From NCBI GenBank assembly GCA_910574345.1, contig CAJSZV010000035.1, forward strand, positions 1 through 39,475: DNA of 39,475 bases, in the 5' to 3' direction. The notes beneath the pieces were generated by a model. It ran no database searches. It was not told the DNA's origin and saw only the letters and a program-made list of their open reading frames with translations. This document shows, in pieces, positions 2,449 through 20,156 of the stretch (positions within the stretch are counted from its first letter, which is position 1; each line of letters starts with the position of its first letter). This DNA comes from Clostridiaceae bacterium. Lineage in GTDB: Bacteria; Bacillota; Clostridia; Lachnospirales; Lachnospiraceae. The position numbers and the translations under genes were made by a program.

Positions 2449-3324
2449 ATGAAAATAATTGATTTTCATCATCACGTATTTCCGCCGGATTTTAAAGTCC
2501 ATCCCTGGAACTTTGAACAGGATCAGATAGATATGAGATATCTACGGTTTGATGGAGCTGTGTTGTCATGTGTTTTGCCAGTGAGTAAAGGTCAGGCACG
2601 AAGAACAAATGAGCAAATGGCCGAAATCAGCCTGCTGGATTCGAAGCACTATACATTTCTGGCATCTATTCCTTTTGATGATGTAAAGGAAGCGATAGAA
2701 GAGATAGGATATGCTTTAGATAGTTTGCATGCGGCTGGTATTTGTATTCCAACGAATAATCATGGGATCTATATCAGCGATGATCGAATGGATCCGGTAT
2801 TTGACGAATTAAACCGAAGAAAAGCAGTGGTATTTTTACATCCCAGCGCAGTACGCGCCCCGGGGAATGATCTGCGTCTTTCCGGGTGTGATGATACGGT
2901 TTATGAATTCGTTTTTGAGACTACCCGGGCAATGATGGATTATATATATAGGGATAAGATGCTAAGGACACCAGATATACGGTGGGTATTATCTCATGCT
3001 GGCGGGACAATTCCGTTTTTGGCTTACCGCCTAAGCCGGGCAGGTGATTGGAACGGGATTTCGCAAAGTTCTGAAGTGGTAGAAAAACAGCTGAAATCCA
3101 TTTACTATGATTTGGCGTTGGCAGATAATGAATCGGTATTCCGCATGATGAAGGACTTTTGCGCAGCCGATCATATTGTGTTCGGATCAGATTATCCGCC
3201 AAGCGCAGTGCCTCACATTGCTGAAGCAGCGGAAAATTTGCGGAAAACAGATGTGTTTACAGCGGAAGAAAAAGAAAAGATTCTATATAGAAACGTTTCA
3301 CATCTTCTTAATTTTGTAGTTTGA
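2449..3324 (+). CDS. Amidohydrolase family 2 metal-dependent hydrolase/decarboxylase
   Basis: This is a 291-residue TIM-barrel protein of the amidohydrolase_2 (ACMSD/gamma-resorcylate decarboxylase-like) family. The metal and catalytic residues are intact: His7-x-His9 in DFHHHVF, His131 in VFLHPSA, His183 in LSHAGG and Asp248 in FGSDYP. Family members use Zn or Mn to decarboxylate aromatic or muconate-type acids, or to hydrolyse C-C, C-N or ester bonds of ring-derived compounds. An AAAGGAGG site lies 14 bases before the ATG, rather distant. It follows the frameshifted DUF169 gene and probably shares the promoter at 1523. The substrate is unknown; the neighbouring genes suggest a step in aromatic or lactone breakdown. 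Confidence 0.9.
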   Translation: MKIIDFHHHVFPPDFKVHPWNFEQDQIDMRYLRFDGAVLSCVLPVSKGQARRTNEQMAEISLLDSKHYTFLASIPFDDVKEAIEEIGYALDSLHAAGICIPTNNHGIYISDDRMDPVFDELNRRKAVVFLHPSAVRAPGNDLRLSGCDDTVYEFVFETTRAMMDYIYRDKMLRTPDIRWVLSHAGGTIPFLAYRLSRAGDWNGISQSSEVVEKQLKSIYYDLALADNESVFRMMKDFCAADHIVFGSDYPPSAVPHIAEAAENLRKTDVFTAEEKEKILYRNVSHLLNFVV

Positions 3325-3704: not shown

Positions 3705-4379
3705 TTAATTTTCTTGTGGGCATCCGTTTCCCTGGCGGTACGGATCCAGGTATGAGCGGATAGAAGAAAGAAGATAAGATTTTGTTAATATCTTCGCGTG
3801 AAGAATGTTCTCTGAATCTTCCATATCACACTCCAGAACCTGCCCGAGAACCCGGGGATACAGGGCAAGGTCAAAAAAGGAAAGAACCACAAAAAAGCTT
3901 AAAAGTCTTGCCGCAAACGGATCCATATTTGCGGCATAGGCCAGGAACAATTTACAGAAGTAGCTGTGAACGGACATGGCGTGGTCAGGTACAATGGGAA
4001 AAAAGGGGGTGAAGGATGTCATTTCCTGATTCATGAGGCGTATGACATTCTGCTCCTCTTTTAATGTGACCCAATCAGCCATTTTTGTTACCAAATCATT
4101 AATCAGGTTCCATGAGTTGTCAGAATTCAGGAGCCCGGCCTGCTCATAGGCATCAATTTCATCGAAAACCGGTTTCAGCATTTCGTGCTGTCTGGCTAAA
4201 GCGCGATTGATGGTCTCAGAGTAAACACTGTCCTTTGACTGAAAACAGGACTGCAGGGATGACAGGCTGGAACCAGCTTCTTTTACGATCTCACGGGTCG
4301 TAGTGCCGTGATATCCCCTTTCGGCAAAAAGCTTTGCGGCAGCTTTCAATATCCTTTCATATGTAGAACTATCCTGCAT
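3705..4379 (-). CDS. TetR/AcrR family transcriptional regulator
   Basis: This 224-residue one-component regulator has an N-terminal TetR helix-turn-helix (about residues 8-50; RILKAAAKLFAERGYHGTTTREIVKEAG) and a helical ligand-binding/dimerisation domain. The ATG at 4379 is chosen because AGAGGGG lies five bases upstream; a GTG six bases earlier sits on the ribosome binding site. The gene lies between two transcription units that share the AGAATCA-NN-TGATTCT palindrome and is divergent from the long operon starting at 4742. It is therefore the likely repressor of both, with autoregulation through the imperfect copy at 4479-4494. The ligand is unknown; the operon content suggests a pathway substrate or aromatic aglycone. 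Confidence 0.9.
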   Translation of the reverse strand: MQDSSTYERILKAAAKLFAERGYHGTTTREIVKEAGSSLSSLQSCFQSKDSVYSETINRALARQHEMLKPVFDEIDAYEQAGLLNSDNSWNLINDLVTKMADWVTLKEEQNVIRLMNQEMTSFTPFFPIVPDHAMSVHSYFCKLFLAYAANMDPFAARLLSFFVVLSFFDLALYPRVLGQVLECDMEDSENILHAKILTKSYLLSSIRSYLDPYRQGNGCPQEN

Positions 4380-4478
4380 GAACACCCCTCTTTTCTCTAG
4401 AAATTACTGCCCGTTTTGGACCTTTTCACCATTTTATCATAAAAAATCGAAATTAGAAAGAGTGATTTCGATAAAAAT

Positions 4479-4521: not shown

Positions 4522-4550
4522 TTGACTTTATCTATGAAAAGATATATAAT
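4522..4550 (+). promoter_or_regulatory. Strong sigma-70-type promoter of the SDR-to-OYE operon
   Basis: The -35 TTGACT (4522-4527) and the -10 TATAAT (4545-4550) are separated by exactly 17 bases. This is the best promoter match in the intergenic region 4380-4741. It is followed 12 bases later by the perfect operator palindrome. The leader to the first start codon is about 180 bases and AT-rich. Confidence 0.65.
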
Positions 4551-4741: not shown

Positions 4742-5506
4742 ATGAAATTAGCGGGTAAAGTTGCAGTAGTCCCCGGCGGAACTGCCGGAATAGGAAAAGA
4801 AATTGCGCTTGCTTATGCAAAAGAAGGGGCGCAGGTGGTGGTAATGAGCAGAAACCAGGAGAGGGTATCTGCCATGGAAAAACTGCTCAAGGAGGCAGGT
4901 TCTGAAAAATCCTTTGGGATTGCAGTGGATATTTCCGATGAGCAGGCTGTTGTAGCGGCATTTAAGCATGTGAAAGAAACCTGCAGCAAGATTGATATCA
5001 TGCTGAACAGTGCCGGGATCTATCCGGTAGCAGCCTTTGTTGAGACCACGAAAGAAGAGTGGGACCGTGTGATCAATGTCAATCTTAACGGGCCTTTTTA
5101 CTGTTCCAGGGAAGCAGCGAAATATATGATTCCCCAAAAAAATGGGAGAATCATCTTTATTACTTCCGGTCAGGCATTGCGGGGAGAGGCACTGATGGCT
5201 CATTACTCTGCGTCTAAGGGGGCATTGGTAGCTCTTGCGCGTGCTTTGGCGGCGGAGTTGGGGCCTCATGGGATCACAGTCAACACCATCGCGGCTGGCC
5301 TGACCACCACGGATACGGTGAATTCCAGTATGCCGCCTCAGCTGCTGACCAATGCGGCTATGGGATTCCCGCTGCAGAGACTTGGAAGACCGGATGAATA
5401 CAATGGGGCGGCCATTTTGCTGGCTTCTGATGACGGAGCCTATATTACCGGCGATACCATCGCTGTTGACGGCGGAGGTTCCAATGCCAATGCATCCCAT
5501 CTGTAA
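4742..5506 (+). CDS. Short-chain dehydrogenase/reductase (SDR)
   Basis: This 254-residue NAD(P)-dependent classical SDR interconverts an alcohol and a ketone on a small molecule. Visible parts are the Rossmann glycine motif GGTAGIG (residues 12-18), the NSAG motif (89-92), Asn114, Ser142 in FITSG and the catalytic Tyr155-x3-Lys159 in HYSASKG. The C-terminal GDTIAVDGG is typical of FabG-like members. The frame is open further upstream, but the ATG at 4742 has AGAAAGG upstream and gives the normal N-terminus. It is the first gene of the long operon, just behind the promoter and operators. A role as hydroxysteroid-type or flavonoid-type dehydrogenase would fit but cannot be told from the sequence. 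Confidence 0.93.
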   Translation: MKLAGKVAVVPGGTAGIGKEIALAYAKEGAQVVVMSRNQERVSAMEKLLKEAGSEKSFGIAVDISDEQAVVAAFKHVKETCSKIDIMLNSAGIYPVAAFVETTKEEWDRVINVNLNGPFYCSREAAKYMIPQKNGRIIFITSGQALRGEALMAHYSASKGALVALARALAAELGPHGITVNTIAAGLTTTDTVNSSMPPQLLTNAAMGFPLQRLGRPDEYNGAAILLASDDGAYITGDTIAVDGGGSNANASHL

Positions 5507-5547: not shown

Positions 5548-7122
5548 ATGGCAGAAAGACATGATATCGTGATTGTAGGGGCGGGACACAATGGATTGAC
5601 TGCGGGATGCTATCTGGCAAAAGCAGGCATGGATGTCTGTCTCATTGAAAAAAATGACAGTGTAGGAGGAGGCGTGTTATCAGGGGAATATATAGCTCCA
5701 GGGTTTGTGACAGATCATTGTTCCACCATCCATGTCCTGGCACAGTTGAGTCCTACCATTAAAGATGACGATTTGGGGCTTAAAAAAGATTACGGATTTG
5801 AATATATTTATCCGAAAGTGCAGATGTGTATTCACTTCTTAGATGGAACTACCTTAAGTATCTACAATACACTGGAGGAAACCTGCCAGGAGATTGCGAA
5901 ATATTCCGAAAAGGATGCCCAGGCTTACCGGAAATTCCAGGAATGGGCGGCAGGCGGAGTCGGCATGATTGTCCAGGGGTTCTATGCTCCGCCGCCATCT
6001 TTCGGGACCTTCGCCGGGATGATGGACAGCGGCCCGGAGATGCGGGAGCTTCTCCGCGCTACCATGATGAGCTGCGAGGATGTCATTGACGAATGGTTTG
6101 AGAATGATAAGGTTAAGATTGCCCTTACCCGCTGGATTTCAGAAATTATGGTTGACCCGTCTACCAAAGGAACAGGAATTATGGTGTTCGTTATGCTGGG
6201 TACGGCTCATATGGGGCAGGGGGCCGGCATGCCAAAGGGAGGTTCCGGAAGCTTAAGCAAGGCGGAGGAAGCCTATCTGAAAGACCACGGAGCAACCATC
6301 CATTTAAACAGCGAGGCAGTGAGATATATTGTGGAAGACGGAAAGTGTACCGGTGTCATCACAAAAGACGGAAAGGAAATTTATGCGGACCAGGCAGTGA
6401 TCAGCGGCCTTCATTTAAAACAGGTATTTCCGCATATGGTTCCGGAAGGCAGTGTGCCGGAGGATTTCCAGAAAAAAGTTGATCGCTTGAAATCCTCTGA
6501 TTTCTCCTGTTTCCAGCAGAGCGTGGCCCTTCATGAGCCGCCCAAGTGGATTGCGGACAGCCCCCAGTTAAATGAGGCGTTTATTGTAGAGTTTGCGCCC
6601 AATACCCTGGATGAGTACAAGCAGTATTTCTTCAATATAAAAAGAGGAATCCCGGCCCATTTCCCGCTGATTTCTGTATCAACCATCCACGATCCCAGCC
6701 GTGCGCCGGAGGGAAAGCATATTATGTATTTTTATGAGTATGCTCCCTATGATCTGCGGGATGGCGGAAGTGAAAAGTGGAGAGAAATCAAAGAAGACTA
6801 TGCCGAAGAAGTGATGAATTTCCTGAGAAAGTACACTACCAATATGGGACCGGAAAATATCATCGGAAAGTGGTCCTGCTCACCGGTTGAGCTGGAAGAG
6901 CATGATCCGGCAATGGTTCACGGAGACTTTGCCCAGCTGGGTAGCTTCCTGGAGCAGAATCTTGGAAATCGTCCGATTCCGGGATATAACTATACCACGC
7001 CCATTGATAAGCTGTTTATCTGTGGTCCCGGGTGCCATCCCGGCTCCGGCGTAAGCTGCGGAGGCCGTGCAGCAGCAATGGCCGTACTGGAGGCACTTGG
7101 AAAGGATATTGATGATATCTGA
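5548..7122 (+). CDS. FAD-dependent oxidoreductase, phytoene desaturase (CrtI)/PYROXD2-like
   Basis: This 524-residue flavoprotein has an N-terminal dinucleotide-binding fold (IVIVGAGHNGLTAG, residues 8-21, then the acidic strand end VCLIEKND) and a C-terminal flavin-closing segment (FICGPGCHPGSGVSCGGRAA near residue 500). Its architecture is that of the CrtI/carotenoid isomerase/PYROXD2 group, whose members desaturate, saturate or isomerise C-C bonds of hydrophobic substrates. AGAAAGGAGAT precedes the ATG. It is the second gene of the operon, 41 bases after the SDR. No carotenoid pathway genes (crtB, crtE with phytoene synthase) are present, so a pathway substrate other than phytoene is more likely. 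It may desaturate or rearomatise a ring and pass electrons to Etf/FixC (inference). Confidence 0.85.
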   Translation: MAERHDIVIVGAGHNGLTAGCYLAKAGMDVCLIEKNDSVGGGVLSGEYIAPGFVTDHCSTIHVLAQLSPTIKDDDLGLKKDYGFEYIYPKVQMCIHFLDGTTLSIYNTLEETCQEIAKYSEKDAQAYRKFQEWAAGGVGMIVQGFYAPPPSFGTFAGMMDSGPEMRELLRATMMSCEDVIDEWFENDKVKIALTRWISEIMVDPSTKGTGIMVFVMLGTAHMGQGAGMPKGGSGSLSKAEEAYLKDHGATIHLNSEAVRYIVEDGKCTGVITKDGKEIYADQAVISGLHLKQVFPHMVPEGSVPEDFQKKVDRLKSSDFSCFQQSVALHEPPKWIADSPQLNEAFIVEFAPNTLDEYKQYFFNIKRGIPAHFPLISVSTIHDPSRAPEGKHIMYFYEYAPYDLRDGGSEKWREIKEDYAEEVMNFLRKYTTNMGPENIIGKWSCSPVELEEHDPAMVHGDFAQLGSFLEQNLGNRPIPGYNYTTPIDKLFICGPGCHPGSGVSCGGRAAAMAVLEALGKDIDDI

Positions 7123-7191: not shown

Positions 7192-7590
7192 ATGAAGATG
7201 GTAAGCAAAGAAGGCCAGACAATGGTTGACGTTACCAAGGTGTATCCGGACAACGGAAACATTGTCATGGTGTGTAAGCTTATGGGAGCTTATTCCATGA
7301 AAATTTATCTGAAGCCGGAGGAATTGAGAAAAGCAATTTCTTTGGTCAACTGGGATTTGATTAAGGAGCTTCCGGATATGCTGGTAAAAGGCACAGCGGG
7401 GGAGGAGAAGCTTCGTGAGATTGGAAATAATCTGTGCAGACTGGGGCCGGATGCGTTACATATTATTTTGGGAGAGAATGGTCAGTCACGGCTGGCCGGT
7501 GCGGCCGCAGAGCTTGGTGTGGCCACTTTTGGAACTTTAGTGGACAGTACGCTGCTCCTTTTGCAGATTCTGCTGCAGGACAAAAAATAG
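7192..7590 (+). CDS. Unknown 132-aa protein in the Fix/prenyltransferase operon
   Basis: I do not recognise this protein. The ATG at 7192 follows a clear TTAGGAGGAA site and is preferred over an upstream ATG at 7153, which falls on the hairpin. The sequence is soluble and mixed alpha/beta, with a segment MVCKLMGAYSMKIYLKPEEL (about residues 25-45), then helices and an Ala/Gly/Leu-rich C-terminus (about 98-130) that could be a weak membrane-associating helix. It has no Cys cluster and no nucleotide motif. It lies between the CrtI-like enzyme and FixC, and a partner or assembly role for one of these is possible. Its conservation next to fixCX/ubiA in other genomes would be informative. Confidence 0.75.
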   Translation: MKMVSKEGQTMVDVTKVYPDNGNIVMVCKLMGAYSMKIYLKPEELRKAISLVNWDLIKELPDMLVKGTAGEEKLREIGNNLCRLGPDALHIILGENGQSRLAGAAAELGVATFGTLVDSTLLLLQILLQDKK

Positions 7591-7610
7591 TGGCCGGACA
7601 GGAGGATTTC

Positions 7611-8903
7611 ATGAAAAAAGGAATAGATAAATGGGATGCTATTGTGGTAGGCGGCGGGCTGGCAGGCCTTAGCGCGGCCTACGAGATGGCGAGGAACGGC
7701 CTGGAGGTGATGGTCGTTGAACGGGGAGAGCACTGCGGGGCAAAGAATGTCTCCGGCGGGCGGCTGTATGGACACAGTCTGGAAAAAATGATCCCTGGTT
7801 TCGCGAAAGAGGCCCCCATAGAACGCAGGATTGTGAGAGAGCGTCTGGCTCTGCTGACAGAAGATGGGGGAACCGTTATAGAGTATGGTTCCGACAGGCT
7901 TGACGCGGCCCCGTCTTACTCAGTAAACCGCAGTGAGTTTGACCAGTGGCTGGCCAGAAAGGCAGAAGAGGCAGGAGCATTGGTCATTACCGGAATTACA
8001 GTGAGGGAATTATATATGGAGGAGGGGAAGGTCTGCGGAATCTGCTCGGACAAAGATGTATTCCGTTCTGACGTGGTTATACTGGCAGACGGCGTAAACT
8101 CTCTTCTGGCCCAGAAAATCGGTATGAAGAAAGAGTGGGATCCGGAGCATGTGGCAGTGGGAGTGAAAGAAGTAATCAAACTGGATTCCCAGAAGATCAA
8201 TATGCATTTCGGTTTGAAAGACGGAGAAGGAACTGCCTTAATGGCCACTGGTTATGTGACCGGAGGGAAAATAGGCGGAGGATTCCTTTATACCAACAAG
8301 GATACGGTTTCGGTAGGCATTGTGACTACAGTGGGAGACACGGAACACAGTGAGGTTGCTGTCCCTGAGATGCTGGAGCGTTTTGAGCAGCACCCCATGA
8401 TTCAGCCTTTGATCCAGGAGGGAAAAGTGGTGGAATATTCTGCCCATCTGGTTCCTGAGGGCGGGAAAAAAGCACTCCCTGCATTAGTGAAGGACGGCGT
8501 GATCCTGACCGGGGATGCAGCAGGATTTGTCATGAATCTTGGATTTACGGTTCGGGGCATGGATCTGGCAATCGAATCCGGAAGGCTGGCAGCGGAGGCT
8601 GTCCTTCGGGCCAGGGCTTTGGGGGATTTTTCCCAGGCGTCCCTGTCCCAATATGAAACTTTGCTAAATGAAAGTTTTGTCATGAGGGATATGGCTCAGT
8701 ATCAGAACTTCCCAGGATTTATGGCCAGTTCCCATCGGCTGTATGATGATTACTCCCAGATGGCTGACTCCCTTTTGGCCCAGCTTTATGTTGTAGACGG
8801 AAACAGGCAGGATGATATTCTGACGAAAGCGGCCAGGGCGGCGGCGAAAGTAGGGTTGGTAAACCTGGCGCTGGACGGTATACGCGGATTGGGGGCATTG
8901 TAA
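7611..8903 (+). CDS. fixC: FixC-like electron transfer flavoprotein:quinone oxidoreductase
   Basis: This 430-residue FAD protein belongs to the ETF-QO/FixC family and moves electrons from an Etf to a membrane quinone. It has the Rossmann glycines GGGLAGL (14-20), the FAD-ribityl-binding GDAAGFVMNLGF segment near residue 305 and the following MDLAIESG helix. The Fe-S domain of mitochondrial ETF-QO is missing and is supplied by the next gene, FixX, as in Fix systems. The start at 7611 has ACAGGAGGATTTC immediately before it; the longer open frame upstream overlaps the unknown gene and is not used. FixX begins at the base after its stop codon. The presence of EtfB and EtfA in the same operon completes a FixABCX set, which in other organisms can bifurcate electrons between ferredoxin/flavodoxin and quinone. 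Confidence 0.93.
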   Translation: MKKGIDKWDAIVVGGGLAGLSAAYEMARNGLEVMVVERGEHCGAKNVSGGRLYGHSLEKMIPGFAKEAPIERRIVRERLALLTEDGGTVIEYGSDRLDAAPSYSVNRSEFDQWLARKAEEAGALVITGITVRELYMEEGKVCGICSDKDVFRSDVVILADGVNSLLAQKIGMKKEWDPEHVAVGVKEVIKLDSQKINMHFGLKDGEGTALMATGYVTGGKIGGGFLYTNKDTVSVGIVTTVGDTEHSEVAVPEMLERFEQHPMIQPLIQEGKVVEYSAHLVPEGGKKALPALVKDGVILTGDAAGFVMNLGFTVRGMDLAIESGRLAAEAVLRARALGDFSQASLSQYETLLNESFVMRDMAQYQNFPGFMASSHRLYDDYSQMADSLLAQLYVVDGNRQDDILTKAARAAAKVGLVNLALDGIRGLGAL

Positions 8904-9191
8904 ATGAATCGAATGAGTGTAGATGATAAGCTGGGAACCAATATGTTCCGTGTAGATGAAGAACATGCACATATTACCATAAAGCAGGAGAAGGTTGATC
9001 ACAAGGAGATTCATAAGCTTTTGCTGGCCTGCCCTGCTCATCTGTATACCCTGGATGAAGAAGGCGGGCTGCAATTTTCTTATGAAGGATGTCTGGAGTG
9101 TGGAACCTGCCGTGTGTTATGCGGCAAGAGCCTGATAAAAGACTGGGATTATCCGGAGAATGGCAAAGGCGTCCTTTATCGGAAAAGCTAA
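8904..9191 (+). CDS. fixX: FixX-like ferredoxin
   Basis: This 95-residue ferredoxin-like partner of FixC has the family layout: Cys43 in ACPAHLY, then Cys63-x2-Cys66-x2-Cys69-x3-Cys73 in the CLECGTCRVLC segment near the C-terminus, enough for one [4Fe-4S] cluster. FixX relays electrons between FixC FAD and quinone. The ATG directly follows the FixC stop codon (TAA ATG), so translation is probably coupled. The downstream prenyltransferase starts immediately after its stop or slightly overlaps it. Confidence 0.92.
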   Translation: MNRMSVDDKLGTNMFRVDEEHAHITIKQEKVDHKEIHKLLLACPAHLYTLDEEGGLQFSYEGCLECGTCRVLCGKSLIKDWDYPENGKGVLYRKS

Positions 9192-9192
9192 G

Positions 9193-10194
9193 ATGAAAAC
9201 GGGAAAACAATGGTTTAAAAATGCCAGGGCAGGCGCCCTGCCTCAGAGCATGATGCCTGCAGTGACAGCGATGTTCATGGCCTGGGGAAAAGAAGGTTTT
9301 TCTTTCCTTTTGGGAGCCTTGGGGGTCATGGGCGTGGCATTTGCTCATCTGGGGTTCAACCTGTTGGATGATTATTTTGATTATATCAGCCATCAGACAG
9401 GCTATCGCCATGTACTGGATCGGGCAGGGTTTCGGGCCTATACGGCAAAATGTCCCTATCTGCAGGATAAATCAGCAACTCTGCAGGATCTGGCCTGTGC
9501 AATCGCCTGTTTTGGCGGGGCGGCAATCGTTTGTGGGACAGTGATATTCGCAAGGCGCGGTATGATTATCCTGCAGATTGGAGTGCCGGCAGGCATCTTT
9601 GGGTACTTTTACTCAGGAAAGCCTTTTCGTCTAAGCTATCATGGGCTTGGGGAAGCTGTAGTGGGCATCATGTTCGGACCCTTTAACATGATTGGGGTCT
9701 ATGCCTCTGCCTGCGGCCGGGTAGAACCGGCAGTGTTCATGATAGGCCTGGGCATGGGAATCCTGGTGACGGTTATCTTGTTTACCCATTCTATTCTGGA
9801 TTATGCAGCCGATCAGTCTGTGGGGAAGAAAACCCTGGCTGCCCTGTTTCCCAAAGAGTCTGTCCGTCTGGCAGTATTTTATGGGATGAATGTATTGCCC
9901 TACCTCCTCATTACAGGGGCAGCCATTTGCGGGCTGCTGTCCTGGTGGTATTTGCTGGTGTGGACAGTGTTCCCCTTCTCCCTGGAACTGTGCCGATCCA
10001 TGAGAAGATATGTAAAATACCCACAGGAAGAAGTACGGTGGAAGCTGTGGTACGGCCCGGTAAAGAACTGGGACAGGCTGCGGGAACTTGGGGTAGACTG
10101 GTTTCTTGTCCGGTGGCTTTTGGCACGGAATATTGTCATCTATTTCAGCGGCGCAAGCATGGCCGCCATATGGCTGTCAGGAGGTGCGGGATGA
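9193..10194 (+). CDS. UbiA-family membrane prenyltransferase
   Basis: This 333-residue polytopic membrane protein transfers a polyprenyl chain from its diphosphate to an acceptor, usually an aromatic ring (UbiA, MenA) or a lipid head group. The first Asp-rich motif is Asn56-x2-Asp59-Asp60-x2-Asp63 (NLLDDYFDY) and the second is Asp203-x3-Asp207 (DYAADQSVGKKTLA), close to MenA-type proteins. About eight hydrophobic helices are visible. An ATG at 9160 would overlap fixX by 32 bases; the ATG at 9193, just after the fixX stop, gives the usual N-terminus. The pairing with a polyprenyl synthetase and FixCX suggests synthesis of a quinone-like carrier (inference). No other menaquinone or ubiquinone genes are seen here, so the acceptor ring must come from elsewhere or be unusual. 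Confidence 0.9.
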   Translation: MKTGKQWFKNARAGALPQSMMPAVTAMFMAWGKEGFSFLLGALGVMGVAFAHLGFNLLDDYFDYISHQTGYRHVLDRAGFRAYTAKCPYLQDKSATLQDLACAIACFGGAAIVCGTVIFARRGMIILQIGVPAGIFGYFYSGKPFRLSYHGLGEAVVGIMFGPFNMIGVYASACGRVEPAVFMIGLGMGILVTVILFTHSILDYAADQSVGKKTLAALFPKESVRLAVFYGMNVLPYLLITGAAICGLLSWWYLLVWTVFPFSLELCRSMRRYVKYPQEEVRWKLWYGPVKNWDRLRELGVDWFLVRWLLARNIVIYFSGASMAAIWLSGGAG

Positions 10195-11141
10195 AAATAG
10201 GGAAGTTGATCTATCTGCCTGTATGGTATGTGAAAAATGTGATGTTAGGAGGCCATGGCCCTCTTCAGACGGTGATTGCCATTACGGATTGCTGTAATTT
10301 GGCATGCCGGCATTGTGCCTCTTCGGTACACGCGGGCACAGCCATGAAACCCTTTGGGCAGATAAATGAGGAGCTTCAGGCAGCTTATAACGCAGGTTCC
10401 CGATTTATTGATTTTGAAGGAGGGGAGCCTACCTTGTGGATGGATGGGGAACACGCCCTCAATGACCTCTATGATCTTGCTCATGAAATAGGATTCTTTC
10501 ACTGTACGCTTACTACCAATGGGCAGCATCCTTTTGGAGATACCAGGGCAGATTTTGTCTGGGTAAGCGTGGACGGAAATCAAGCCTGTCATGACATGGT
10601 ACGGGGAAAGGGGACATTTCAGGTCTTAGACCGCAACATCCGTGAGAGCGGGCTTAAGAATCTGGCCATTAATATGGTAATACACAGAAAAAATGTGTCA
10701 TCCGTGACAGAGACTATACGTTATGCCAAGGAGAACCCGGCTGTCTGCGCTATTTCCCTGAATTTTCTCACGCCGTATCCTGGGACAGAGGAACTTCTTC
10801 TGCCATGGGAAACCAGAAAAAAAGTGATTGACCATATCATAAAGATGAAGAGGGCAGGCTATCCCATTATCAACAGCTGTTCAGGCTTAAGGAGGATGAA
10901 AGAGAGAAAGCCCCATCATAACTGCTGGATTTCCCATTTTATTCTTTTAGATGGCACATGGAAGGAGTGTCCGGGAAAAGAACTTGGAATCTGTATGGAT
11001 TGCGGCTTTTGCATGGCAGGAGAGATGGACGGGGTGGCAGGACTGCGGCCGGATACGGTTCTGGCAGGACTGAAGCTGAGAAACTCGTGGTGGAAAAACA
11101 GAAAAAAGAAAAAGAATACAGGCAGGGGAAGATCGCAATGA
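10191..11141 (+). CDS. Radical SAM protein with C-terminal cysteine cluster
   Basis: This 316-residue radical SAM enzyme carries the SAM-cluster motif Cys35-x3-Cys39-x2-Cys42 (CNLACRHC), the GGEP SAM-binding motif (77-80) and a SPASM-like set of C-terminal cysteines (Cys245, Cys260, Cys268, Cys271, Cys274) that could hold a second Fe-S cluster. Its ATGA start overlaps the prenyltransferase stop, and its own stop overlaps the start of the polyprenyl synthetase, so the three are tightly coupled. I cannot assign it to MqnC/MqnE, HpnH or a peptide-modifying subfamily with confidence. Position suggests it modifies the ring or chain of the prenyl product (C-C bond formation, oxidation or methylene insertion). 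The lysine/arginine-rich C-terminus may aid membrane contact. Confidence 0.85.
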   Translation: MKIGKLIYLPVWYVKNVMLGGHGPLQTVIAITDCCNLACRHCASSVHAGTAMKPFGQINEELQAAYNAGSRFIDFEGGEPTLWMDGEHALNDLYDLAHEIGFFHCTLTTNGQHPFGDTRADFVWVSVDGNQACHDMVRGKGTFQVLDRNIRESGLKNLAINMVIHRKNVSSVTETIRYAKENPAVCAISLNFLTPYPGTEELLLPWETRKKVIDHIIKMKRAGYPIINSCSGLRRMKERKPHHNCWISHFILLDGTWKECPGKELGICMDCGFCMAGEMDGVAGLRPDTVLAGLKLRNSWWKNRKKKKNTGRGRSQ

Positions 11142-12133
11142 AAAAATTGGGGCAGACTGGTCAGATCATGGAGTATGCGCTGGCGCAGACAGAGAAAAGA
11201 ATGAAGCGGATCGTGCAGGGAGTCTTAAAAGACAAGCTTACCGGGACGATGCTGAAAGATGCGCTGGCGGCGCCGGGAAAAATGCTGCGCCCTCAGATGC
11301 TGGTCCTAAGCGCCTGTCTGGTTGATGAAAAGGCAGCTGCAGCCCACATAGAAAGTCTTATCCGATGGGGAGCGGTCATCGAGCTCTGCCATACAGCTTC
11401 CCTTCTTCATGATGATGTAATTGATCAGTCCCCAATCCGCCGGGGAAGGCCTACATTGATGAAGCGATATGGCAATTCCCCGGCTGTTTACGCAGGGGAT
11501 TATGTGCTGGCCTGTGTTTTAAGGGAGGTCCTGAAATCCCATGGAGAGGACAGGGCGCTGCTTTTGACGGATGGTATTGAGGAAATGTGTGTCGGCGAAA
11601 TGAACCAGACCCACTGCAGGTACCGGCAGAATGTAACCATAGAGCAGTATAACAAAAATATAGCAGGAAAAACAGGCGTGCTGTTTGCCGCAGCCTGCTG
11701 TCTTGGCTCTATGGAAGTGACAGGGGATCAGGGAATTGTAGAAAAATATGAGCAGCTGGGCCGGAGACTGGGGCGGGCGTTCCAGCTGAGGGACGACTTG
11801 CTGGACATCATATCGGATACAAAGGAATCCGGGAAATTGGTCATGCAGGACTTTCGGGAAGGTATTTATACGCTTCCGGTCCTGCTGGCCCGTGATCATA
11901 CGATTTATGGTCCTGTTGTAAAAAAACTGATGAAGAAGAGCAGGAAAGGGATCCTGAGTGAAGAGGATTTGAAGGTTTTGAAGGAAACCCTTATAAAATC
12001 CCAGGCTGTTGGCAGGGTTTCAGAGGAGGTCTGTGATCTTCTGGAAGAATGTAAGAATGCAGTAAAGGATTCCTCATGCCTGTGGGCAAAAATAAGGACA
12101 GAAGCCATACTGGACAGACTGAAAACCATATAG
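11138..12133 (+). CDS. Trans-polyprenyl diphosphate synthase
   Basis: This 331-residue head-to-tail isoprenyl diphosphate synthase condenses isopentenyl diphosphate onto an allylic primer to make a chain. Both Asp-rich motifs are intact: DDVID at Asp92-Asp93-Asp96 and DDLLD at Asp219-Asp220-Asp223, with RRGRPT (101-106) between. The residue five positions before the first motif is alanine (Ala87), which in this family usually permits long products (C30 and up) rather than C15 or C20. The ATG overlaps the radical SAM stop codon. Together with the UbiA protein it provides a complete prenylation unit. The operon has no upstream isoprenoid genes, so it draws on the host's isopentenyl diphosphate. 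Confidence 0.93.
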   Translation: MKKLGQTGQIMEYALAQTEKRMKRIVQGVLKDKLTGTMLKDALAAPGKMLRPQMLVLSACLVDEKAAAAHIESLIRWGAVIELCHTASLLHDDVIDQSPIRRGRPTLMKRYGNSPAVYAGDYVLACVLREVLKSHGEDRALLLTDGIEEMCVGEMNQTHCRYRQNVTIEQYNKNIAGKTGVLFAAACCLGSMEVTGDQGIVEKYEQLGRRLGRAFQLRDDLLDIISDTKESGKLVMQDFREGIYTLPVLLARDHTIYGPVVKKLMKKSRKGILSEEDLKVLKETLIKSQAVGRVSEEVCDLLEECKNAVKDSSCLWAKIRTEAILDRLKTI

Positions 12134-12182
12134 CGATTCAGAAATCCAGTGGCTGTTATGAAGAAACATGGAGGTGATAAGG

Positions 12183-12989
12183 ATGAACATACTTGTCTGT
12201 ATCAAACAGGTGCCGGATACAACGGAGATTAAGATTGATCCGGAAAAGCATACTCTCATTCGTGATGGAGTACCCAGTATTGTCAATACGTTTGATACCT
12301 ACGGGCTGGAGATGGCCTGCCGTCTGAAAGAAGAGACAGGCGGAACCGTTACCGTCGTGACTATGGGGCTGCCTCAGGCAAAAAATGCTTTAAGGAGTTG
12401 TCTGGGAGCCGGGGCAGATGAGGCGGTGCTGATTTCTGACCGGCCTTTCGGCGGTTCGGATACGCTGGCTACCAGCTATATTATTTCTCAGGCGGTTGCT
12501 TTTTTGGAAAGGGAGAAAGGCAGTACTTTTGACCTGATCTTGTGTGGGAAACAGGCCATAGACGGGGATACTGCCCAGGTAGGGCCGGAACTTAGCGAGC
12601 ATTTAGGGAGGCCTTTGATTACTTATGTGTCTGCCCTGAAATACAGGAACGGTGAGTTTGAGGCAAAAAGGGAAAATGATGATGGATATGACCGGATCGG
12701 TGTGAAGGCGCCTTGTGTGATGACCGTGGTGAAGACCGCATATGAACCCAGGTATCCCACACTGAAAGCGAAGATAAGGGCTCAGTGGGCGGATATCCGG
12801 ACCATTACGGCAGAAACCATGAAAGATACCCTGGATTTATCCAGGTGTGGCCTGAAAGGTTCGCCTACCAAGGTAGTAAGGACTACGACACCCCAAAGAC
12901 AGAGTGAGTGCCAGTATATAAAAGAGGCTTCACCGGCTCTGAACGCGGGAAAGCTGGCAGATATTCTGGCCCGGAAAAAGGTGATCTAG
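12183..12989 (+). CDS. etfB: Electron transfer flavoprotein beta subunit (FixA/EtfB)
   Basis: This 268-residue EtfB has the N-terminal ILVCIKQVPDT, a GADEAVLISD segment and the signature CGKQAIDGDTAQVGPEL (about residues 124-140) that contacts the flavin/nucleotide. GGAGGTGA lies six bases before the ATG at 12183. It pairs with EtfA 12 bases downstream to form the soluble FAD carrier that delivers electrons to or from FixCX and possibly the OYE-type reductase. Whether it binds FAD (bifurcating) or AMP (classical) in the beta subunit cannot be settled by eye. Genes in the operon give it both a membrane outlet (FixCX) and an enoate-reductase-like partner. Confidence 0.95.
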   Translation: MNILVCIKQVPDTTEIKIDPEKHTLIRDGVPSIVNTFDTYGLEMACRLKEETGGTVTVVTMGLPQAKNALRSCLGAGADEAVLISDRPFGGSDTLATSYIISQAVAFLEREKGSTFDLILCGKQAIDGDTAQVGPELSEHLGRPLITYVSALKYRNGEFEAKRENDDGYDRIGVKAPCVMTVVKTAYEPRYPTLKAKIRAQWADIRTITAETMKDTLDLSRCGLKGSPTKVVRTTTPQRQSECQYIKEASPALNAGKLADILARKKVI

Positions 12990-13001
12990 GAGGTGGAACG
13001 A

Positions 13002-14018
13002 ATGGATTTTTCTGAGTATAAAGGTGTCTATGTCTTTGTGGAGACCGAAGAAGGGAGACCAAAGGCGGTAAGCTTCGAGCTTTTAAATCCGGCAAGGAAG
13101 CTGGCGGATAAACTGGGAGAGTTTGTGGGGGCCTTTGTGGTAGGACATCAGGTGGAAGAGACGGCACAGATGTGTGTTCAGTATGGGGCAGATAAAGTGA
13201 TCGTCATTGATGCGCCGGAATATCAGTATTATACCACGGATGCATTTACCAATGCGCTGCATAAAGCAGTAGAAAAATATAAACCAAACGTCATGTTGAT
13301 CGGCGCCACCAATAATGGACGTGACCTGGGTCCCAGGCTTAGCTGCCGCCTTCAGACAGGATTGACGGCAGACTGTACCAGTCTGGATATCAATGTGGAA
13401 TCAAGAAATATGGAATGGACCCGTCCCGCGTTTGGCGGAAATCTTCTGGCAACCATTATGTGCCCCAATGACCGTCCTCAGATGGGAACTGTGCGGCAGG
13501 GTGTATTTAAAAGACCCAAACCGGAACCGTCATGCCATGGGGAGATGATTTATGAAACGATCCGCACTATGCCGCAAGAGATATCTACCAGGCTGATCGA
13601 GCGTGTGAAAGAAGTTGTGGAATCCGTGAATCTGGAAGAGGCAGAGATCATCGTTGCAGGTGGATATGGCATTGGAAAAGCAGAGAATTTTAAATATTTA
13701 GAAGAACTGGCCCAGGTTTTAGGAGGTCAGGTAGGAGCTACCAGAAAAGTGGTAGATGCCGGGTGGATTGCCCATGCGTATCAGATCGGCCAGACAGGAA
13801 AGACGGTGGCACCGAAACTTTATATTGCCGTAGGAATTTCAGGAGCCATCCAGCATCTGGCAGGGATGAGCGGTTCAGAAACAGTAGTAGCAATCAATAA
13901 TGATGCCGGCGCGCCGATCTTTGGAGTTGCCCATTATGGCATTGCAGGGGATTATAAAGAAGTGCTTCCGGCGCTGGTTGATGAATTCAGAAAGAGAAAA
14001 GGAGAACAGGAAAGATGA
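13002..14018 (+). CDS. etfA: Electron transfer flavoprotein alpha subunit (FixB/EtfA)
   Basis: This 338-residue EtfA ends with the classical FAD-binding domain: [36 protein letters not shown] and [18 protein letters not shown] (about residues 245-320). AGGAGGTGG lies just before the ATG at 13002; an in-frame GTG at 12993 sits on this site and is not used. Its stop codon overlaps the start of the following OYE-type reductase (ATGA), which points to a functional Etf/reductase partnership, comparable in principle to reductase-Etf complexes such as CarCDE of Acetobacterium (inference). Confidence 0.95.
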
Positions 14019-15964
14019 AAAAGAGTTGTTTAGCAGAACCTTTAAAAATCGGCAGAATTATGGCGAAAAACCGGATTTGGCTTTCTCCTATGGAAACCAA
14101 TACCTGTTCTGTGGATGGAGAACTGACAGATGTGCAGCTGGCTCATTATGAGGCAAGGGCAAAGGGCGGAGCCGGCATGCTGATTCAGGAGTTTACCGCC
14201 GTGGACGGAGGGCATACCGTAAGGCCCCTGCAGCTGCGGATTGATGATGACAAGTTTAAAGTCCGCTTAAGCCGTCTGGTGGACGCGGTCCATGCATATG
14301 GTACTCCCATTATCTGCCAGCTCCACCATGCGGGAATGTTTTCCTCCCAGGATCCGGTATCGCCTTCTGGCGTTGCCTGTTATGAACTAGGGAAGGGACA
14401 TTATATCCAGCCGAGAGTCATGACCATTGAGGAGATCGAAGCGGCACGGCAGAGCTTTATCGAAGCGGCTGTCCGCGCAAAAGAGATTGGATATGACGGC
14501 GTGGAACTTCACGGTGCTACAGCCTACCTTCTCGCCCAGTTCTTTTCCGGGTACAACAACAAGAGAACAGATAAATACGGCGGAAGCCTGGAAGGAAGAA
14601 TGATGTTGGCAATCGAGATCGTTCAGGGAATCCGGAAGGCCTGCGGTCCTGATTTTCCCATAGGGTACACCATGTGCTATAACGACTGGCTGCCTGGAGG
14701 GGCCAATTTTGAGGATACCATGGTCTTTGCCTTGAGACTGGAACGGGAAGGGATTGATTTTATCGATTTTCAAACTGAGGGCACTTATGAGACCTTTACC
14801 CTGGAGCAATGTGCGGCAGGGGCAAGACGTCAGCCCAAAGGAATCTTCCAGACAGTAAAGGAATTTAAAAAAGTTCTCCATGTTCCTGTTTCCTGCCGTG
14901 CTTCCGGTGAGTATGATCCCAAAGTCTGGGAGAGGGCTGTGGCAGAGGGGCAGGTGGATGCTGTGCGTGCGGCCAAGGCCCATTTGGCAGATCCGGAGCT
15001 GGCTTCCAAGATATTAAAAGGAAGGGAGGAGGATGTCCGTCCTTGTATCCGCTGCCTGAACTGCCTGGACAGCGCGGTGGTGAAGCATATGGCTCTCAAC
15101 TGTTCCTTGAACAGCGGCTGCGCCCATGGGGAGGAAGAAATCCGGAAAGCGGATACGCAGAAAAAAGTCCTGGTAATCGGAGGCGGACCGGCAGGTCTGG
15201 AAGCAGCCAGGGTATCTGCTTTGAGAGGCCATCAGGTGACACTCTGGGAAAAGGAAGATCATTTGGGAGGTAACCTGTACATAGCCTCTCTTCCCATCGG
15301 TAAGGAGGAATTCCAGAAGTTTACACGGTGGGCCGAAAGGCAGTGCAAAAAGCTTGGGGTGGCCATCTGCCTGAATAAAGAAGCAACGGCCCAAGCCGTG
15401 AAAGAATTTGCCCCGGAAGCAGTCATTTACGCGGCAGGGGCTGATCCCATAAAGCTTTCCGTACAGGGAGCAGACCAAGCTCATGTGATTTTTGCCAGGG
15501 ACGCCCTTCTTGGAACGAAAGCTATTGGAAAGAAGGTTGCGGTGATCGGCGGCGGAGAAGTAGGAATTGAAACCGCAGACGCCCTGCTTTACAAAAATAT
15601 CGCGGAGGAAGTGACTATTGTTGAAATGCAAAATGACATAGGCCGGGATATGCCGGGGATGGATAAGGCTTCCCTTATGGGAAACCAGTTCCCCAAATAC
15701 TTCCCTCAAAGGCTTCATATTCTGGTAGATACAAAGCTGGATGAAATCCGGGAAAAGACCATTGTGGTGGAGGACAAAAACTGGAGAAAGACGGAGGTAG
15801 AGGCGGATACGGTAGTGCTGGCTATCGGCTACCATGCAAACAGAGAACTGTATGAGGAGCTTGAGGATATGACGGAAGAAATCTATATGATCGGAGATGC
15901 CATCCATCCAAGAAAGATCGTAAACGCAGTTCATGAGGGAAACAAGATTGCCCGTCAGATATAG
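14015..15964 (+). CDS. Old-yellow-enzyme-type NADH:flavin oxidoreductase with [4Fe-4S] and FAD domains
   Basis: This 649-residue enzyme has three parts: an FMN-binding TIM barrel (1 to about 330, with His166 and Tyr171 in ELHGATAYLLAQFFSGY and the NKRTDKYGGS motif), an Fe-S segment (Cys344-x2-Cys347-x2-Cys350-x12-Cys363) and a pyridine-nucleotide/FAD reductase domain (VIGGGPAGLEAA near 388, a second VIGGGEVGIETA near 510). This is the layout of 2,4-dienoyl-CoA reductase, BaiCD/BaiH, daidzein reductase and gut steroid reductases, which reduce alpha,beta-unsaturated carbonyls. The exact substrate is not visible. It is coupled to EtfA by an ATGA overlap and is the last gene before the hairpin at 15969. 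In this setting it probably reduces an enone or flavonoid-like aglycone. Confidence 0.93.
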   Translation: MKKSCLAEPLKIGRIMAKNRIWLSPMETNTCSVDGELTDVQLAHYEARAKGGAGMLIQEFTAVDGGHTVRPLQLRIDDDKFKVRLSRLVDAVHAYGTPIICQLHHAGMFSSQDPVSPSGVACYELGKGHYIQPRVMTIEEIEAARQSFIEAAVRAKEIGYDGVELHGATAYLLAQFFSGYNNKRTDKYGGSLEGRMMLAIEIVQGIRKACGPDFPIGYTMCYNDWLPGGANFEDTMVFALRLEREGIDFIDFQTEGTYETFTLEQCAAGARRQPKGIFQTVKEFKKVLHVPVSCRASGEYDPKVWERAVAEGQVDAVRAAKAHLADPELASKILKGREEDVRPCIRCLNCLDSAVVKHMALNCSLNSGCAHGEEEIRKADTQKKVLVIGGGPAGLEAARVSALRGHQVTLWEKEDHLGGNLYIASLPIGKEEFQKFTRWAERQCKKLGVAICLNKEATAQAVKEFAPEAVIYAAGADPIKLSVQGADQAHVIFARDALLGTKAIGKKVAVIGGGEVGIETADALLYKNIAEEVTIVEMQNDIGRDMPGMDKASLMGNQFPKYFPQRLHILVDTKLDEIREKTIVVEDKNWRKTEVEADTVVLAIGYHANRELYEELEDMTEEIYMIGDAIHPRKIVNAVHEGNKIARQI

Positions 15965-19118: not shown

Positions 19119-20156
19119 TTAAAGTCCCAGCAGCGTCTTGGCGTTTTTATAAGCTACCTGGTCATACAGTTCTGGAGGAAGTTCTTTAAGCTGCTCCAGA
19201 GCATGGCCCATACCCCAGTCATCAGGGGTGATGGGATAGTCAGAACCAAAAAGAATCTTGTCGCTTCCCAGAATTTCAGCAGCGCACATAACAGCTTTCG
19301 CGCTCATGGAGTGGGTGTCCCCATAGATGTTATTCGTATAATTCTTCATATTGCGGAGAAAACGTTCAGGAGCGGAGGGGTCAGTTACACAGCGTCCGGC
19401 CCGTTCTGCTCCGGTCAAATACATGGTGTAGAGCATCTCCATCCGTTCCAGCATAAAAGGATACATTCCTCCCAGCTGTCCCAGAACCACTTTAAGCCGC
19501 GGATGGCGGTCAAAAATCCCGGAAAGCACCAGCCTGGCAGCGCAAAGGGCGTCTTCCATTAGCTGTCCCATTCCGGCATACAGAAGAGTGTCATTCATAA
19601 AACCGGGAAGAGGGGCGTCAGGGTCATTCACCTTATACAAATTGCTGAAATGGATAAAAACCGGTTTTCCCGCCCGCTCCGCTTCTGACCAGAAGGGTTC
19701 AAACTCAGGAGCGTCCAGAAAACAAAGCTGTCCATTCAGACGGTATGCCGCAAGAATCGAATACCCCTTTACTGAGTCATGACAACGGCCAATCTCTAAA
19801 AGTGCCTCATTGCCGAGTCGCAAATCCACAAGGGCAGTGGTCAAAAGACGCCCGCCGCTTTCTTTGCACAGGGAGATGGTCCGATCATTGAGAAGTTGCA
19901 CTGCTTCCAGGGGAGATATTCCCACGGTTACGCAGGCAGCATCAATGATCTGGGTGATATTGGCAGAGTAAGTGTTCAGAGAGATTTGAATACCAGAAGC
20001 TTCCATCTTTTTATAGCGCAGTGAAACCTCCTCAAAAGCCGGATTATTCCAGAGATAAACAGGTCCGAAATCCTTCCTGCCGGTTTGTTCCATCCAGGCA
20101 AGGTAATCGGTGTTAAAAGGTGCAGCCACATGATGAGCGTGGCAATCAATCAGCAT
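19119..20156 (-). CDS. Amidohydrolase family 2 protein with an altered catalytic position
   Basis: This 345-residue TIM-barrel protein is of the ACMSD/amidohydrolase_2 family. It has DCHAHHV (His6-x-His8), His169 in VFIHFSN and Asp306 in LFGSDYP. At the position where the family and the other amidohydrolase here (LSHAGG) carry the catalytic histidine, this protein reads VLGQLGG (Gln227). Zn-binding may be kept while the chemistry is changed or lost. AGGAGGA lies eight bases before the ATG. It is transcribed divergently from the sensor kinase, with only 169 bases between them, and convergently to nfnB. The substrate is unknown. Confidence 0.88.
   Translation of the reverse strand: MLIDCHAHHVAAPFNTDYLAWMEQTGRKDFGPVYLWNNPAFEEVSLRYKKMEASGIQISLNTYSANITQIIDAACVTVGISPLEAVQLLNDRTISLCKESGGRLLTTALVDLRLGNEALLEIGRCHDSVKGYSILAAYRLNGQLCFLDAPEFEPFWSEAERAGKPVFIHFSNLYKVNDPDAPLPGFMNDTLLYAGMGQLMEDALCAARLVLSGIFDRHPRLKVVLGQLGGMYPFMLERMEMLYTMYLTGAERAGRCVTDPSAPERFLRNMKNYTNNIYGDTHSMSAKAVMCAAEILGSDKILFGSDYPITPDDWGMGHALEQLKELPPELYDQVAYKNAKTLLGL

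Follow-up and report, generated by a model that had tools for sequence, protein, structure and literature searches.

Which lipid would a quinone-reducing Fix complex use in a member of the Clostridia, a class long described as being without menaquinone (PMC5861303, in the part of that text available)? The question is raised by contig CAJSZV010000035.1 (C35) of the Clostridiaceae bacterium assembly GCA_910574345.1, placed in Lachnospiraceae (genome of 5.6 Mb, 97% complete); the entire contig, 39,475 nucleotides, is the window analysed here. Positions 7611-15964 of its forward strand form one tight unit of eight genes, as assessed by open reading frames (ORFs), Pfam and NCBIfam. They encode FixC, FixX, a UbiA prenyltransferase, a radical S-adenosylmethionine (radical SAM) protein, hereafter rSAM, a polyprenyl diphosphate synthase (PPS), EtfB, EtfA and a reductase of the old yellow enzyme (OYE) type. 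We consider it fairly probable, judging from gene content and order, that this operon is a self-contained quinone cassette in which rSAM replaces the methyltransferase MenG in the ring step and whose lipid is reduced by FixCX. The broader claim of the original prediction, that an isoprenoid redox lipid is made locally and is linked with the Fix complex, is as a prediction from genes well supported, UbiA, PPS and rSAM being found repeatedly with either FixCX or HdrABC-Flx.

The gene that follows ubiA in related operons is informative in this respect. A UbiA profile search through 299 genomes of the same family gave seven matches at E up to 1e-15. Two of them, in the window genome (475 bits) and genome G219 (510 bits), are accompanied by rSAM; the remaining five score 116-158 bits. 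None of these five shows an rSAM of the window clade in the rSAM search of the 299 genomes (G050 has one of another clade, G021 and G071 give weak matches only, and G233 and G289 are unlisted). A UbiE/MenG methyltransferase directly follows UbiA in all five (PF01209 in four; the G021 copy recognized by tblastn, 45% identity), within the orders PPS-UbiA-MenG-FixC-FixX (G289, G071), Hdr-Flx-UbiA-MenG (G050, G021) and UbiA-MenG-PPS (G233). With the Oscillospiraceae genome G687 included, this position of MenG is seen in six out of six MenG loci. G687 has both arrangements, PPS-UbiA-MenG-FixC-FixX (L123/L146) and a MenG-free FixC-FixX-UbiA-PPS cluster plus rSAM, which suggests that its two cassettes make two different products. 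Gene order thus presents MenG and rSAM as apparent stand-ins for each other, at the same place after UbiA and in both operon types. Because related operons of both types have UbiE/MenG where rSAM is found, rSAM can be assigned to the lipid module, as had been proposed, and its product is probably not ordinary menaquinone, since it takes the place of MenG; this last point is new. The Hdr-Flx operons with UbiA-MenG in Lachnospiraceae (L144, L142) are of interest in their own right, as they apparently represent a menaquinone module relying on salvage of 1,4-dihydroxy-2-naphthoic acid (DHNA) and tied to a soluble bifurcating complex.

A pattern scan derived from a two-sequence alignment disclosed 20 named rSAM loci in 20 genomes, 49-60% identical, a number that is a lower bound as only pattern-holding sequences are caught (L083 is on the same contig as the G219 locus, with neighbours 100% identical). 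UbiA is located directly upstream of rSAM on the same strand in 13 of these loci (L066, L068, L069, L075-L078, L080-L085), as it is in the window. In L067, rSAM lies ~3 kb past the FixC-FixX-UbiA-PPS cluster, in which the frames of UbiA and PPS are broken, through either assembly error or decay. In this genome, Clostridia bacterium UC5.1-1D2 (L067/L133), TatC (Pfam) and apparent molybdenum-cofactor genes also lie next to FixC-FixX-UbiA-PPS. In G687 (L074), the FixCX-UbiA-PPS cluster (L122) starts ~12 kb away on the same contig. In four Spirochaetota (L070-L073), rSAM is on a different contig from FixC-FixX-UbiA-PPS (L116, L117, L119, L121), adjoining a malic enzyme in L070 (Pfam), and in L079 a related UbiA is on a different contig (L125).

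The FixCX-UbiA-PPS context is thereby present in seven genomes: that of the window, L067, G687 and the four Spirochaetota. EtfB and EtfA are near it in six of the seven, with none seen around L067, and an acyl-CoA dehydrogenase accompanies EtfBA in five, that is, in all but the window and L067 (recognized through Pfam in L117 and L122, and in the remaining three from its location and the start of its sequence). Clusters of the four Spirochaetota add proteins for cytochrome c assembly (ResB-like and CcsA-like) along with a di-haem protein resembling MauG, as determined by Pfam and NCBIfam on L117 only. The Hdr-Flx context occurs in 11 loci (L068, L075-L078, L080-L085) and has UbiA and rSAM placed after HdrABC, MvhD and three Flx-like subunits, although in L080 and L081, truncated by the end of the contig, only the Flx genes of this set are visible before UbiA. 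A DUF445 gene comes after rSAM in 10 of these 11 loci, and PPS is at the front of the operon in seven of the 11, where the available sequence reaches. In L066 and L069, UbiA-rSAM stands alone in the available sequence. The exact order fixC-fixX-ubiA-rSAM-ispA/B-etfBA, which the original prediction proposed to look for across Clostridia, was seen in the window only. As for OYE, which according to the original prediction would form an electron-feeding complex with Etf, tblastn found no close relative in the other clusters, and one 30% relative 5 kb downstream of rSAM in L068.

Possible electron outputs were observed as well. In G687, a molybdopterin oxidoreductase with a twin-arginine (TAT) signal (DMSO_red_II-like) starts 88 bases after rSAM and is followed by a Fer4_11 protein and an NrfD anchor; onward on the same strand come EtfB, EtfA and acyl-CoA dehydrogenase and, ~4 kb later, FixCX-UbiA-PPS. 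By its gene content, this contig would hold input, carrier module and quinol-type output together. Two Treponema genomes have a second UbiA near DmsA-, DmsB- and DmsC-like genes (L118, L120; families assigned with Pfam and NCBIfam in L118 alone). This second UbiA is MenA-like, with TatA/TatC-like genes nearby and in genomes without MenG, and is a possible demethylmenaquinone user.

The prediction that the operon has no known ring genes beside it holds in the window genome for MqnA/D (PF02621, no match), MenB (no match at E 1e-20) and MenG (none over the cut-off of 158 bits; two matches of 58 and 47 bits), the search not extending to ubiquinone genes such as UbiC and UbiD. A MenD-like match of 191 bits (L052, G000:C1) is below the cut-off of 244, and its neighbours, judged by eye, are glycosyltransferase-, flippase- and epimerase-like, as in a polysaccharide-type cluster. 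A full Men or Mqn pathway was rejected for this genome on the grounds that MqnA/D, MenB and MenG were not found. Across the hosts, MenB is over the cut-off in none of 26 genomes; sub-cut-off matches of up to 164 bits were obtained in 20 of the 26, as expected of crotonases. MenG exceeds its cut-off in one of the 21 rSAM genomes, which is G687. In the other 20 genomes, MqnA/D gave matches of 28-47 bits in four, inside ORFs that by eye resemble ABC-transporter binding proteins beside permease/ATPase genes, and MenD was over the cut-off in one (G683). MenD-like proteins in L052 and L129 each adjoin an SDR-like gene (short-chain dehydrogenase, SDR), an arrangement that is a trap for automatic menaquinone annotation.

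The window UbiA is the sole UbiA of its genome and retains the Asp-rich motifs, which are invariant in the alignment. Its best NCBIfam model is MenA (106 bits, cut-off 264), and TIGR00751 gives 39.9 bits against a cut-off of 102, so no MenA-model cut-off is reached; among PDB sequences, the family profile matches UBIAD1 best (E 7e-24). A UbiA-family match over the cut-off was found in all 20 other rSAM genomes, some of them of other UbiA kinds. The PPS finds its best NCBIfam models mostly among long-chain synthases, every one under its cut-off. FixC has the quinone-binding domain ETFQO_UQ-bd (Pfam, 36.4 bits, over the cut-off), and with the NCBIfam model actually named FixC (PRK10157) it scores 470 bits, under the cut-off of 610.

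Taken as a proposed mechanism, PPS would provide a long isoprenoid tail, and the MenA-like UbiA would join it to a small dihydroxy-aromatic ring. The rSAM would tailor this ring, or build it beforehand, in place of the MenG of sister cassettes. FixCX would then reduce the isoprenoid quinone-like lipid in the membrane with electrons from EtfAB, probably in an NADH-driven bifurcation in which ferredoxin would be reduced as well. In the version found in the window, the SDR, a CrtO-like enzyme upstream (Table 1) and OYE have the appearance of a substrate end, where the relatives have an acyl-CoA dehydrogenase with EtfBA instead. The lipid predicted from these genes may be a naphthoquinone. Its ring would come either from the host's own synthesis or from salvaged DHNA, which may serve since UbiA is MenA-like and no column of its alignment separates rSAM-linked from MenG-linked sequences. 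A more far-reaching version, which we put forward tentatively and with more doubt than confidence, is a third anaerobic route, in those Lachnospiraceae, Oscillospiraceae and Treponema in which no known quinone pathway is found: a new isoprenoid quinone would have its ring built or remodelled by rSAM, and this lipid would be the high-potential acceptor of two unrelated bifurcating complexes, FixABCX and HdrABC-Flx, and would feed molybdo-reductases.

The features of rSAM bear on what it might do at this place. Its cysteines are laid out as a CX3CX2C core with CX9GX4C and three further Cys at the C end, and C35, C39, C42, C245, C260, C268, C271 and C274 are invariant in all 19 aligned rows (19 of 21 sequences; L073, truncated by the contig boundary, and L081, nearly identical to L078, were omitted, and the L067 row is without its N-terminal part). 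Radical SAM proteins of the SPASM/twitch subgroup have a CX3CX2C core and CX9-15GX4C with further Cys, and the rSAM carries this motif. The Pfam scan detected the Radical_SAM domain only, with neither a B12-binding nor a HemN-like C-terminal domain. In the predicted model (pLDDT 80), the nearest structure is the decarboxylase BlsE, with the peptide maturases SkfB and SuiB also near; the fold comparison places the model in the general SPASM/viperin neighbourhood and fixes no reaction. The second-best PDB sequence match is GDGT-MAS, a lipid rSAM.

The alternative that survives best is that rSAM is a non-orthologous replacement of MenG, so that salvaged DHNA would be converted to demethylmenaquinone and methylated by rSAM to ordinary or near-ordinary menaquinone. 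The location of rSAM exactly at MenG's spot directly after UbiA would fit this, as would the match to GDGT-MAS and a UbiA alignment in which no column separates the two cassette kinds; in addition, DHNA salvage by menAG-only gut microbes has been proposed (PMC4746308) and use of exogenous DHNA reported (PMC10746273), in the parts of these texts available. It is made unlikely by the domain content just described, by the SPASM/twitch-like Cys layout with BlsE as the nearest structure, and by G687, whose two cassettes have separate UbiA, PPS and FixCX genes; menaquinone as the product of both would make one set superfluous.

Phylogenetic comparison addresses the second alternative, plain DHNA salvage, in which UbiA and PPS make demethylmenaquinone from imported DHNA and rSAM is unrelated to the process. 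In the UbiA tree, comprising 20 of the 21 rSAM genomes (L067 omitted for its broken frames; the genome of L079 represented by L125), a 94/95 branch has the 20 UbiAs of rSAM genomes on one side and, on the other, those linked to MenG together with the second UbiAs of Treponema. On the rSAM side there are two deeply split kinds, R1 (window, Hdr-Flx loci and L125) and R2 (Spirochaetota, G687, L066 and L069). In the tree of rSAM sequences (ten of the 13 rows of clade B included; L081 omitted), the whole clade is separate from a HemN-linked clade, clade B (100/100). Because the R2 rSAMs form one clade (100/99), including five that are non-adjacent to UbiA, UbiA kinds and rSAM kinds match between the trees. 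The R1 rSAMs are not one clade, and long branches lead to the window and L079 sequences, the latter branch meeting that of clade B. Between the window and R2, identity is 18-23% for UbiA and 50-59% for rSAM, UbiA being far less conserved. Plain salvage agrees with a MenA-like UbiA and with ring genes not found, and has a precedent in the quinone auxotroph L. plantarum, for which use of exogenous DHNA is reported (PMC10746273, in the part available), but it is made improbable by the recurring linkage of rSAM to UbiA, by the agreement of their kinds between the trees and by the exchange of rSAM for MenG in sister operons. Least probable is that the module yields no quinone but, for instance, a prenylated peptide, haem or structural lipid, a reading to which the closeness of the rSAM model to SkfB and SuiB and the HemN-like neighbour of a related 30-35% rSAM clade in Lachnospiraceae might point, but which is at odds with the recurring quinone-type partners (FixCX, NrfD- and DmsC-anchored reductases), with MenG in sister operons, and with the fact that no precursor peptide was noticed, though none was searched for.

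Several observations weigh against the favoured reading of a quinone cassette with rSAM in the ring step. A midpoint root of the UbiA tree puts R2 UbiAs with the MenG-linked ones, and rSAM-linked UbiAs therefore need not be one clade. Ten UbiA columns join R2 and MenG-linked sequences versus R1, and none joins R1 and R2 versus MenG-linked sequences (five of six MenG-linked rows; the partial L145 omitted); because no column separates both rSAM kinds from MenG-linked UbiAs, UbiA carries no mark of an rSAM-special ring substrate. A ring of a new kind, as worded in the original prediction, is not borne out in this respect, UbiA being nearest to MenA models, and the lipid could be demethylmenaquinone or menaquinone. 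The rSAM and UbiA are on separate contigs in five genomes (L070-L073 and L079), and single absences are weak since 19 of the 20 named genomes are metagenome-assembled. The four PF02621 matches exceed the low cut-off of that family, 26 bits, and the MenD-like protein of G683 is over its cut-off (259 bits; L129, G683:C8), though in a polysaccharide-type cluster. To our knowledge, Hdr-Flx is no known quinone enzyme. Finally, the rSAM is present in one of 26 genomes of the genus, and in one of the 11 of better quality, which makes it a dispensable trait there.

The same genus count indicates that rSAM is an accessory, perhaps transferred, trait. Among the 299 genomes of the family, a close homologue is found in two, the window genome and G219 (53% identity), and 13 more carry a 30-35% relative belonging to clade B. 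In members of this HemN-linked clade (L033-L045, e.g. L035:7950-10113), an rSAM of HemN/HutW-like type, 417-483 aa long, is the next gene in L033, L035 and L037 (NCBIfam run on the L035 copy only). A class-wide draw searched with the two-sequence rSAM profile gave matches in 13 of 391 genomes at E 1e-20; those outside the window genome score 143-181 bits versus 660, G022 of the HemN-linked clade among them. As this draw of 391 contains no rSAM at close-relative level besides that of the window genome, the rSAM clade is considered rare. Recorded hosts of the 20 loci are Lachnospiraceae, Oscillospiraceae, other Clostridia, four Spirochaetota including Treponema and one Bacteroidales metagenome-assembled genome, and an animal gut site or faeces is the recorded source in 14 of the 20. 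A mobile-element origin was also considered and rejected: no relative was found in IMG/VR with the patterns used, and plasmids gave eight records of distant rSAMs with 24-38% identity over at most 71% of the protein.

The operon can be compared with several known systems. MqnC and MqnE of the futalosine pathway and the class C 8-methylmenaquinone methylase perform radical SAM chemistry on a menaquinone-type ring; none of them is among the best 25 NCBIfam models of the window rSAM, and MqnA/D were not found. The best NCBIfam match of rSAM is the PTO1314 family (TIGR03961), with 62 bits far under the cut-off of 306, and the MftC-type model gives 44.7 bits against 265. Window EtfA, EtfB, OYE and rSAM all match models of the mycofactocin system, but all four under the cut-off, and we know of no UbiA or polyprenyl synthase that is part of that system. 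A mycofactocin-like system was ruled out, all matches being under the cut-off. FixABCX of Azotobacter, as studied, is ubiquinone-reducing and bifurcating, and of the four groups into which bifurcating complexes fall, one is of the EtfAB type and another of the HdrA type (PMC5861303). The window unit is similar to FixABCX in having FixC with the quinone-binding domain of electron-transfer-flavoprotein:quinone oxidoreductases, FixX and EtfBA, and differs in carrying UbiA, rSAM and PPS in a host in which no known quinone pathway was found. With the menAG-only DHNA-salvage module it shares a MenA-like UbiA, often PPS, FixCX or Hdr-Flx neighbours and no MenB over the cut-off, whereas the window has rSAM at the position of MenG and a UbiA across the 94/95 branch.

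Features of the unit and its immediate surroundings are listed in Table 1. The eight genes from FixC to OYE, mostly coupled, are confirmed by ORFs, families and gene joins: there is no gap between FixC and FixX, a gap of 1 between FixX and UbiA (its start at 9193, preferred over 9160 as judged by the starts of homologues), and 4-base overlaps at UbiA/rSAM, rSAM/PPS and EtfA/OYE, with gaps of 49 and 12 around EtfB. The placement of rSAM exactly between UbiA and PPS and the coupling of EtfA with OYE are accordingly as predicted. The start of the unit at 7192 is less certain; the 132-aa ORF found there has no family match, and the unit may begin upstream at 4742, with the SDR, the CrtO-like gene and the 132-aa protein. 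A promoter-like site with an 11/12 match at 4522-4550 is only suggestive as the unit start, because the scan total of 22 sites is close to the 18.8 expected from shuffles. Elsewhere in the window, two Amidohydro_2 proteins flank the operon (2449-3324 and 19119-20156), and the minus strand encodes a fusion of AraC-type helix-turn-helix, cupin and glycosyl hydrolase family 39 domains (28967-31426).

Table 1. Genes of the putative quinone cassette and adjacent candidates in the window
Feature	Position	Strand	Evidence
Divergent TetR-type regulator, possible regulator of the unit	3705-4385	-	Pfam TetR_N 49 bits
SDR, possible first gene of the unit	4742-5506	+	Pfam adh_short_C2 214 bits; 41 bases to next gene
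CrtO/CrtI-like FAD oxidoreductase, possible unit member	5548-7122	+	NCBIfam BCarotKetCrtO 263 bits, far under cut-off 1000
132-aa protein directly before FixC	7192-7590	+	AGGAGG 5' of start; no Pfam/NCBIfam match
FixC, electron-transfer-flavoprotein:quinone reductase family	7611-8903	+	NCBIfam PRK10015 485 bits, cut-off 466
FixX, ferredoxin-like subunit	8904-9191	+	PRK15449 93 bits, cut-off 166
UbiA prenyltransferase, MenA-like	9193-10194	+	Pfam UbiA 71 bits, over cut-off
Radical SAM protein (rSAM)	10191-11141	+	Pfam 52 bits, over cut-off
trans-Polyprenyl diphosphate synthase (PPS), long-chain type	11138-12133	+	Pfam polyprenyl_synt 196 bits, over cut-off
EtfB, FixA-like position	12183-12989	+	Pfam and NCBIfam
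EtfA, FixB-like position	13002-14018	+	Pfam and NCBIfam
OYE/BaiCD-like NADH:flavin oxidoreductase	14015-15964	+	mycofact_OYE_2 425 bits, BaiCD 405 bits, both under cut-off

Among the titles and abstract openings listed in searches of the open-licence literature, no description of a module with UbiA, radical SAM and PPS together with Fix/Etf was found, and the part of Chobert et al. 2026 (PMC13386864) that was available does not mention "radical SAM". Gut genomes having quinone-dependent enzymes and no quinone pathway have been presented as a puzzle, with alternative quinones or exchange of DHNA suggested as answers (PMC4746308, from the part available). Both suggested answers now correspond to separate, testable gene sets, UbiA-rSAM and UbiA-MenG. 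If the rSAM product is indeed a new quinone, it would represent a new respiratory lipid in bacteria of the animal gut; the radical SAM reaction involved would likewise be new, and electron bifurcation would gain a new acceptor.

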